DNA of 40,377 nucleotides from a virus: the IMG/VR virus record IMGVR_UViG_3300027759_000176, positions 1-40,377 of that record; one strand, 5' to 3'. The notes beneath the pieces were generated by a model. The model saw only the letters and a list, made by a program, of their open reading frames with translations. It had not been told where the DNA came from and made no database searches. The first letter of the stretch is position 1; each line of letters begins with the position of its first letter. Shown one piece after another: positions 37,029 to 39,470 of the stretch. The translations under genes were made by a program, and so were the position numbers.

Positions 37029-39470
37029 CTAAATTCGTTGTACTTTACCATCAACCGCTTCTGGTCTACGATAGATAAAAGTATTAGCTCGACTTACCAT
37101 TGATTCACCATGACCTTGAACTAATGCCAATATACCAATACGGGCTGAGTCAATATGGTCATCAGGGTCTGAAAACTTACCACCTTCATCAATAGCGTAG
37201 TTTCTAGCTTCATCCAAGAACGCATTACATGATTCATTAATCATTAATGTTTTACGTTCCATTCCTAGACGCATTATATTGATTCCGTAAGACTTATGGT
37301 TAGTTACCTTACCTTGGTCGTTCGCAGGATTAAGAATTGCACCTGGTATACAGTTTAAACCATAATTATCTTCAAATGTCTCGCGAATAGATTGTTCAGT
37401 CAATGTATATCGACCAGCCTGACCAGCATCATGCGGTAAAGCGATTGGAACACCTTTAGATTCCCTGTCCATCAGATAATGAACGTATTCATCTGGCACT
37501 TCACCTCGGGGAATAGTTACTTGACGATGTAAATAGATAATTTCAGCCACTGGATCACGGAAAAAGAAACTAATGACTGTTGGATCATTACGAATACCCA
37601 AGTCAAATGAAATCAGACGTTCCATCTTCTCGTTGTGCATTAAATCAAAGTCAATAGCTTTATAAGTAGGCCATTCCAGCATTGGAAACACAACACCTTT
37701 GCCAACTAGAGGAGTTCCATTCATTCGGCATTCCCTTTCCCAAGGCATAAAATCTCGTGATAGCTGTTCACGTTCTTTTTGTGAGAAAAACTCTTCATCC
37801 CATTCATTTTTGTATGGAACGTCATCCCAACCAACTCTGACATGGGTGTAGCCTTCAATCTTGTCCCAAAACTTACGCACAAGTCCTGACATACCTTTAA
37901 GAGGCGTAAAAGAACACATGACCTGACCATTACGCTGTGCTGTACGTACAACAAGCTCAGAAAAGATTTCATCTGGCGGTTGCTCATCAAGAACAACTAG
38001 GTCAAGCTCAAATCCCTGCAAATGTCGCACTTGTTGGGTGTAATTGGAGAAATACAGTTTTGATTTGCCACCTGAGATGTGCCAGACTTCAATAGCCAAC
38101 ACGTTCGCGCCATCCGTTCTGATTGATTTTGAATCAATGTCTTCGCGTGGGATGGAACCAGTGCCAAGTTTATAGGATTGCTTAATATCATCACAGCCTA
38201 ACAATTTACTTTGAAGCGTTTTAGCGACCTGTTCCCAAGATTCACCACTTGCCATCGCAATAATGGGAGTAGTCCAGACTTTACCCGTCCAACCTTTGGG
38301 ATAACGCCCTGTCAAATGATAAGCAGTCTCATAAGTAGAGGCGATTGTATTGTGGTGAACAATACCACAGCTAATGTAATTTTCAGTACCAGGTACAGTA
38401 AAGTCATATACATCATGGAAGCCAATAGGTTCATACGCTATAATCTTATTAGCATCATTACTAAAAGGATTTAACAATGAAGGCAATTCAATTTGATCTT
38501 GAGCAATTACGCGATCTTGTCGAAGTACAGCAATTAACTCAAGAACGTATTTCTGTAATACTTGGATGTAATCGGTCAACTCTTCAGAGGGCTTGTTATC
38601 GTTTTGGTCTAAATACTCAACGAACCGGGCCACGAGATGGCGAGTTGCATACAGGGTGGAAGGGGGGAAGAAATTTGCTTGGAGGATATTGGTATATATA
38701 TTTTCCAGATCATCCTTATTGCACCAAGAAAAAGAATGTAGCAGAGCATAGACTTGTGATGGAGCAATTTCTTGGTCGGTATTTATTGCGAAGCGAAGTT
38801 GTTCATCACAAAAACGGAGATTCTCAAGACAATCGTATAGAGAACCTTCAAGTTTTTGCTTCAAATTCAGATCACCTAAAGCATGAGTTGACTGGACAAA
38901 TTCCCAATTGGACGCCAGCAGGTTTGGAAGCGATGAAAGCAGGGACTCGCAAAAGACGTATTCAGCTCCAGACTGCAAAACGCGATGCCCAAGGGCGGCT
39001 TCTATCCATCGACCATTTGCCATCCATAGACGAACACATGGCTCCTGTGGCTTTTTAATAGGCTGTATGGCTGTTTTAATAACAACCTTTTTGCCGTCCC
39101 AAGAATTAACTTCAAAAGATTCACCCCGTGCATACATCTCACCATAAGTGATACGTTGACCATTGGGTAGATCTAAAAGTGTTGCTGCTGTACAACATTT
39201 TCCAGTACGGTTAGCCGCGATCATTCCACGGCGTGTATGAGTTGAACCTGTTTTAAAAAAATCAGTTTGATACTTAAATGGCCTAAACCATTTCAAAGTA
39301 TTGAACTGCATATCTTTGGAAACTACATCCCTTGCTGTTTTCATGGCTTTAAGCTGTTCAGGAGTCATCTCTTTGATGTACTTCTTGCCACCAGCAAGTT
39401 GAACAAGGTGCTTTAAGGCTCTATCCTTGTAAATAGGTTGGATGTAATCACTAGCTTCACTCTTCGCCAT
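37029..39470 (-). CDS. terL: Terminase large subunit with in-frame intein, 813 aa (530 after splicing)
   Basis: This is the packaging motor ATPase and nuclease. Without residues 92-374 the Walker A reads AANRTGKT, followed by IASTYETAYHLTGR; Walker B is LVVLDEQ (D495, E496), the coupling motif is CSFTPLKG, and the nuclease acids are D623 (ISFDLGIRND), D681 and D774 (DDHIDSARIG). The intein starts at C92 and ends with N374; splicing would join K91 to T375 and restore GKT. Unspliced protein cannot bind ATP, so splicing is needed for packaging. The middle of the intein is the antisense of a plus-strand HNH gene at 38477-39058. The start ATG overlaps the 62-aa gene by 14 bp. Confidence 0.96.
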   Translation of the reverse strand: MAKSEASDYIQPIYKDRALKHLVQLAGGKKYIKEMTPEQLKAMKTARDVVSKDMQFNTLKWFRPFKYQTDFFKTGSTHTRRGMIAANRTGKCCTAATLLDLPNGQRITYGEMYARGESFEVNSWDGKKVVIKTAIQPIKKPQEPCVRLWMANGRWIEAALGHRVLQSGAEYVFCESLLSSLPNLLASNWEFVQSTHALGDLNLKQKLEGSLYDCLENLRFCDEQLRFAINTDQEIAPSQVYALLHSFSWCNKDDLENIYTNILQANFFPPSTLYATRHLVARFVEYLDQNDNKPSEELTDYIQVLQKYVLELIAVLRQDRVIAQDQIELPSLLNPFSNDANKIIAYEPIGFHDVYDFTVPGTENYISCGIVHHNTIASTYETAYHLTGRYPKGWTGKVWTTPIIAMASGESWEQVAKTLQSKLLGCDDIKQSYKLGTGSIPREDIDSKSIRTDGANVLAIEVWHISGGKSKLYFSNYTQQVRHLQGFELDLVVLDEQPPDEIFSELVVRTAQRNGQVMCSFTPLKGMSGLVRKFWDKIEGYTHVRVGWDDVPYKNEWDEEFFSQKEREQLSRDFMPWERECRMNGTPLVGKGVVFPMLEWPTYKAIDFDLMHNEKMERLISFDLGIRNDPTVISFFFRDPVAEIIYLHRQVTIPRGEVPDEYVHYLMDRESKGVPIALPHDAGQAGRYTLTEQSIRETFEDNYGLNCIPGAILNPANDQGKVTNHKSYGINIMRLGMERKTLMINESCNAFLDEARNYAIDEGGKFSDPDDHIDSARIGILALVQGHGESMVSRANTFIYRRPEAVDGKVQRI
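38439..38444 (+). promoter_or_regulatory. TATAAT box upstream of the antisense HNH gene
   Basis: A perfect -10 hexamer TATAAT ends 32 nt before the HNH ATG on the plus strand. The best -35 at 17-bp spacing is TGGAAG, a weak match. AAAAGGA at 38463-38469 is the Shine-Dalgarno sequence, 7 nt before the ATG. Together these could give the nuclease expression independent of the late transcript, although TATAAT also arises by chance in AT-rich DNA. Confidence 0.4.
38477..39058 (+). CDS. HNH homing endonuclease encoded antisense inside the TerL intein, 193 aa
   Basis: The protein has an N-terminal helix-turn-helix (residues 8-45: QLRDLVEVQQLTQERISVIL then GCNRSTLQRACYRFGL), then a full HNH_3-type core: AEHRLVMEQFLGRYLLRSEVVHHKNGDSQDNRIENLQVF (H91, H110, H111, N119, N123), and a basic C-terminal part. 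It would cut intein-less alleles and drive homing. The gene lies entirely within the intein (39197-38349) on the other strand, with codon first positions facing each other. The final 25 codons lie opposite splicing block B. A good AAAAGGA precedes the ATG. Confidence 0.9.
   Translation: MKAIQFDLEQLRDLVEVQQLTQERISVILGCNRSTLQRACYRFGLNTQRTGPRDGELHTGWKGGRNLLGGYWYIYFPDHPYCTKKKNVAEHRLVMEQFLGRYLLRSEVVHHKNGDSQDNRIENLQVFASNSDHLKHELTGQIPNWTPAGLEAMKAGTRKRRIQLQTAKRDAQGRLLSIDHLPSIDEHMAPVAF

Follow-up and report, generated by a model that had tools for sequence, protein, structure and literature searches.

Can a protein-splicing element and the nuclease that would mobilize it be encoded on opposite strands of the same DNA? 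This question is raised by a large terminase (TerL) gene in a viral sequence of 40377 nucleotides, the IMG/VR record IMGVR_UViG_3300027759_000176, which is taken at its full length and is called the window here. A sequence-only reading had claimed that the TerL gene contains an intein without an endonuclease in its own frame and that the same DNA carries an HNH endonuclease gene on the other strand. This core claim holds, and the arrangement is recurrent and conserved. The element is very probably an ambisense homing intein, in which one strand encodes splicing and the opposite strand mobility, though cleavage, splicing activity, and plus-strand transcription are inferred. The features of the locus are as follows.

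37029-39470, minus strand: TerL gene with its intein, an ORF of 813 aa, open from end to end; the C-extein matches TerL PHROGs
39198-39470, minus strand: N-extein, residues 1-91
38349-39197, minus strand: intein of 283 aa (C92-N374) in the Walker A P-loop, AANRTGK/C ... VHHN/T
37029-38348, minus strand: C-extein, residues 375-813, including the stop
38973-39014, minus strand: intein block B (GRWIEAALGHRVLQ), with invariant His71; the 3′ end of the HNH gene runs across it
38658-38906, minus strand: intein linker, intein residues 98-180, facing the HNH core and predicted to be disordered
38349-38414, minus strand: intein blocks F and G, residues 353-374, with the terminal VHHN; C-terminal splicing region
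38477-39058, plus strand: HNH homing-endonuclease gene, 193 codons and stop, antisense and wholly within the intein DNA
38498-38605, plus strand: helix-turn-helix at the N-terminus of the HNH protein, residues 8-43 (AlphaFold helices 8-17, 22-29, and 33-43; weak HTH_23 match)
38738-38890, plus strand: HNH core, EHR...VVHHKNG...NRIENL...N..H, residues 88-138 (HNH_3)
38465-38469, plus strand: Shine-Dalgarno sequence AAGGA, 7 nt 5′ of the HNH ATG, within the intein C-terminal coding region
38439-38444, plus strand: TATAAT hexamer, a weak candidate for a -10 box, with no -35 element found

On the minus strand, all diagnostic intein residues are in place (C1, His71 of block B, His282, Asn283, and Thr at position +1), and C1, H71, H282, and N283 are invariant in 66 relatives. 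The intein matches PF14890 at 1e-4 and scores above the TIGR01443 cutoff, and no endonuclease domain was found in its own frame when the window was matched against domain and family profiles, bearing out that part of the sequence-only reading. Profile and structure comparison of the AlphaFold model places the intein in the HINT fold; pLDDT is about 90 or more for residues 1-90 and 251-283 and mostly below 50 for residues 98-180. IMG/VR and GenBank MW202484.1 contain TerL homologues that lack the intein and are 72-95% identical. Since the usual Thr of block B is replaced by Ala in the window (ALGH), the efficiency of splicing is uncertain.

On the plus strand, the HNH gene is complete and has the full core, as had been claimed. 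Its product matches Pfam HNH_3 at 3e-10 and PHROG HNH at 7.5e-24, its catalytic motif is intact, with H91, H111, N119, N123, and N130 invariant in 77 relatives, and its AlphaFold model has a mean pLDDT of 89.7. The proposed helix-turn-helix is supported by the N-terminal helices of this model, the profile match alone being weak, and the proposed Shine-Dalgarno sequence is present and is kept in the relative L011. The gene had been placed between the splicing blocks; it does lie wholly inside the intein, but its 3′ end runs over block B. Codon position 1 of the plus strand stands opposite codon position 1 of the minus strand. Among relatives, the HNH start is ATG in 77 of 79, and a Shine-Dalgarno duplex energy of -4 or lower is found in 57%, compared with 12% of same-phase control windows; a recognisable Shine-Dalgarno sequence is absent from many. 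Judged from these signals, the HNH gene has a translation start of its own, which in most copies is preceded by a ribosome-binding site. The TATAAT box is also present, but its role as a promoter is unsupported, because a promoter scan found no sigma-70 pair for the plus-strand gene (0 vs. 3.9 by chance) and the hexamer reads TACAAT in L011.

The likelihood that the intein frame is open by chance was estimated with 200,000 synonymous-codon shuffles of the window HNH gene, which used its own codons and kept the protein. The frame was stop-free in 26 of these, with a mean of 6.3 stops, so the odds of about 1 in 10,000 given in the sequence-only reading were of the right order of magnitude for one gene. 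Doubt over chance is removed by recurrence, which is the decisive evidence. A first IMG/VR scan with the window HNH protein as query gave the close relatives L011 and L012, both frames being intact in each, along with L013 in the TerL of another group and L014 in a different gene. In a scan of IMG/VR with an HNH alignment, 79 of the best 80 relatives lay wholly antisense in a long minus-strand ORF, although the alignment was built from antisense members and this fraction is no population estimate. Overall, among distantly related phages and prophages, the same layout in one relative register occurs at about 117 loci, which form 79 clusters at 80% HNH amino acid identity; chance antisense ORFs of free-standing HNH genes are mostly in another register. 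The recurrent inteins are mostly 270-346 aa long and nearly all lie in the P-loop, and the HNH ATG is usually 86-161 nt inside the intein C-terminal end.

The host genes are mostly terminases, with one SbcC/Rad50-like gene. Isolated carriers include eight Ymer-group phages of Pectobacterium and Dickeya (among them Pectobacterium phages Ymer and Abuela) and Pseudoalteromonas phage PHS3, while prophage copies are found in the genomes of Enterobacter cloacae DSM 26481, an Acinetobacter, and E. coli MEI003. The 1255-aa terminase ORF at L047:1163-4927 combines an antisense-HNH intein with a weak match to LAGLIDADG close to the C-terminus, and the gene may hold two inteins whose nucleases differ in type. 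At L046:452-3976, the minus-strand ORF encodes 1175 aa, compared with about 840 in close relatives; gene fusion or a second insertion may explain the difference.

Members of the same HNH family also occur as free-standing genes in phages and genomes. One of these (L017:2309-2953, MW202481.1) is flanked by structural genes, and its phage comes from the spring that also yielded MW202484.1. No sense-orientation version of the same HNH within an intein was seen among the relatives retrieved; a Mycobacterium phage methylase (L019) was considered as such a case and rejected, as its HNH match lies inside the methylase gene and no intein match is present. On the HNH tree, the antisense label requires at least 5 changes, 2 of them forced by starred branches, compared with 21.7 in shuffles, but the tree is poorly resolved at depth and cannot prove one origin. 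A stronger argument for a single origin than the tree is the one common register. A separate case is L014:4500-5696, where an HNH-like extein gene contains a Hom_end_hint intein with an apparently truncated antisense HNH ORF in another register. It is possible that L014 marks an independent second origin; a search for its relatives found no second case in its register.

The free-standing relatives also provide a reference for the effect of the overlap on the nuclease itself. Antisense stops per 100 codons number 0.01 in the antisense HNH genes vs. 4.35 in the free-standing ones, and the antisense frame is stop-free in 78 of 79 antisense genes vs. 0 of 59 free-standing genes, with no intermediates. 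Openness was partly a criterion for choosing the antisense set. In the register of the P-loop cases, Phe followed by Ile, Met, Thr, Asn, or Lys forces an antisense stop, and these dipeptides are missing from the antisense HNH proteins (0/268) while being found in their free-standing relatives (76/314). By this measure, the requirement for a stop-free antisense intein frame has shaped the HNH protein. Taken as a whole, the elements are likely to form a widespread class, probably of single origin, with a fixed register, an HNH protein shaped along some 200 codons by the need to avoid stops, and nuclease expression uncoupled from that of the host protein.

Selection on the two frames was separated by classing substitutions according to their effect in both, with pairs 75-93% identical. 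Opposite intein residues beyond 92, dNN/dSN of the HNH is 0.17 (0.13-0.21), ranging over 0.17-0.25, and dNN/dNS of the intein is 1.06 (0.77-1.38). Opposite intein residues 1-92, which include blocks A to B, dNN/dNS of the intein is 0.25 (0.14-0.39) and the HNH value is 0.49. Between the window and L011, the TerL codon positions change at rates of 0.15, 0.09, and 0.49 in the exteins and non-overlapping intein, the third being fastest, and at 0.17, 0.30, and 0.10 in the overlap. This order is inverted because the third position of the HNH codon faces the second position of the TerL codon; past block B, HNH position 3 is the fast position of the overlap. These substitution patterns show purifying selection on the HNH core and the intein blocks, with the linker only kept free of stops, and the roles reverse opposite block B, where the HNH tail follows the intein. 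The reading of the linker agrees with the contrast in AlphaFold confidence between the HINT parts and residues 98-180. The sequence-only reading had proposed measuring dN/dS of both frames and would have been refuted by homologues whose plus-strand frame was broken as often as other antisense frames. That outcome did not occur, as the HNH is under purifying selection in homologues; the two frames, however, are not both constrained in amino acid sequence along the whole overlap.

Evidence for movement as a unit comes from allele comparisons. L066 and L057 have C-exteins that are 82.6% identical and inteins that are 99.8% identical over 933 nt (p=3e-55), with the switch in identity falling exactly at the intein ends. 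The same pattern is found in L056/L053 and others, and the converse in L079/L074, where near-identical exteins contain different intein alleles. In the window family, nucleotide identity is 0.80 for the intein vs. 0.76 for the exteins (p=0.02), so the intein is not clearly more similar. Thus, a mobile unit bounded by the intein ends is seen in relatives (L066/L057, L056/L053) but not in the window family, and the evidence for mobility rests on other family members. Distances of the HNH and the non-overlapping HINT part correlate (r=0.30, 0/2000 permutations). TerL genes of the PHS3 type include dozens of empty alleles as well as full copies, L123 has a stop in the HNH frame with TerL intact, and L194 and L195 have lost the HNH start by deletion, leaving a natural intein of 203 aa that is 97 aa shorter. 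Empty, full, decayed, and HNH-deleted alleles together make up the homing cycle known for inteins. Comparative analysis thereby supports an intact intein, an intact and selected HNH gene, one mobile unit, a sporadic distribution, and one conserved register as firm results. One of the empty alleles, in IMGVR_UViG_3300020048_000440 (L008:6221-6400), is an intein-less TerL 95% identical to the window C-extein in which about 24 codons surrounding the unoccupied P-loop site are duplicated in tandem and in frame (GMIAGNRTGKTISSTYETAYHLT RGMIAANRTGKTIASTYETAYHLT); the duplication may have arisen through break repair at the homing site or as an artefact of assembly.

Each of these lines of evidence bears on other explanations of the overlap. 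A free-standing HNH gene could have hopped into the intein as a safe harbour, targeting some other site without mobilizing the intein. The existence of free-standing relatives and the undetermined cleavage site leave room for this, but it is an unlikely account of a single register and a constant position with respect to block F in 79 clusters, of a mobile unit that stops exactly at the intein ends, and of correlated HNH and HINT distances. It is still harder to uphold true dual coding, in which the intein peptide opposite the HNH would be a functional folded domain selected for its amino acids alongside the nuclease. In its favour, this stretch is always open and keeps a length of 80-200 aa, but past block B the intein dNN/dNS is about 1 or more and HNH position 3 is the fast one, residues 98-180 mostly fall below a pLDDT of 50, and the intein shortened by 97 aa persists in L194/L195.

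In some phages, HNH proteins encoded beside terminase genes are reported to be packaging cofactors (Kala et al., cited in PMC10448857). Such a role in place of homing would fit the predominance of terminases among hosts, yet there is very little to recommend it: most close relatives that have an intact TerL lack the HNH, the HNH decays while TerL remains intact (L123, L194), and one copy lies in the SbcC/Rad50-like gene. The view of the HNH as a dead passenger, or as an antisense ORF that arose by accident, can be virtually dismissed: broken copies do exist (L123, L194, and L195), but purifying selection, invariant catalytic residues, enrichment of Shine-Dalgarno sequences, ATG starts in 77/79 relatives, and the PHROG HNH match all contradict it.

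Under the preferred explanation, an ambisense homing intein, the HINT protein-splicing domain encoded on the minus strand would excise itself from the large terminase after translation, and this self-removal would make an insertion in the P-loop non-lethal to the phage. An HNH endonuclease, translated separately from the plus strand of that DNA, would most likely cut intein-less TerL at the insertion point, an inference made without cleavage data or a recognition sequence. Repair by homologous recombination is then inferred to copy the whole intein, nuclease gene included, into the cut allele. The linker between the splicing blocks would be unstructured, with the absence of stop codons as its sole requirement. 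This layout is inferred to be advantageous in that production of the nuclease would not be tied to the late packaging protein, and the nuclease would not have to fold inside a terminase precursor.

In phages and prophages, the element is a clear case of a long antisense gene overlap in which the products of both strands have protein homologues. It makes testable how antisense overlapping genes stay open and whether uncoupling of the nuclease alters homing, and the isolated phages and complete bacterial genomes that contain it make bench work possible now. It also exposes an annotation error, as pipelines call the HNH or the TerL but not both. In E. coli MEI003 (NZ_CP071263.1, L258:2665-5070), the RefSeq annotation has the antisense HNH as a gene and labels the intact, intein-bearing TerL an incomplete pseudogene that lacks its N-terminus. 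The PHS3 annotation gives a shortened TerL; in Ymer-group records the HNH gene is unannotated, and the paper on these phages does not mention an intein.

Composite inteins with LAGLIDADG nucleases (PI-SceI, PI-PfuI, TliVMA) also join a HINT domain and a homing-type nuclease in one mobile unit, insert in conserved active-site motifs, and pass through a cycle of empty, full, and decayed alleles. Their defining feature, an endonuclease domain that the intein frame itself encodes between blocks B and F, is missing here; instead, the window nuclease is a separate protein from the opposite strand, neither made nor excised with the host protein. Fractured genes, as reported by Dassa in 2009, contain an intein broken into two halves, with a free-standing endonuclease gene lying between them. 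They resemble the window in linking a phage-type intein to a separate nuclease gene, but there the intein and host gene are split, whereas the window TerL is not divided into separate ORFs and overlaps its nuclease antisense in one continuous frame. DnaB/DnaE mini-inteins (1mi8, 4o1r, 1zd7) share the HINT fold (TMt 0.79 to 1mi8, profile E 8e-22) and are not known to have a second gene on the opposite strand. For the nuclease, matches to the HNH model in a fold search were all weak. I-HmuI (1u3e), which is intron-encoded on the sense strand, shares the HNH catalytic core by a weak profile match (E 0.006, residues 88-129), but the window HNH has its DNA-binding helix-turn-helix at the N-terminus.

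Inteins with in-frame HNH domains are known (Dalgaard 1997, as cited in PMC5050341 and PMC8966425). An endonuclease gene on the complementary strand is known from the P1 extension of a Porphyra rDNA group I intron (PMC2585584). Introns of this type likewise combine a self-splicing element with an opposite-strand endonuclease gene, but they lie in rDNA, with no sense protein frame to keep open, whereas both strands are ORFs here. Among the open-access papers searched, none describes an intein with an antisense endonuclease gene, although subscription papers and preprints are not excluded. On the evidence of sequence and predicted fold, the element is an intein that would work like a homing intein, yet it is neither a composite intein, a split intein, nor a fractured gene. 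It would thus represent a third genetic layout for homing inteins, beside the in-frame and split forms.
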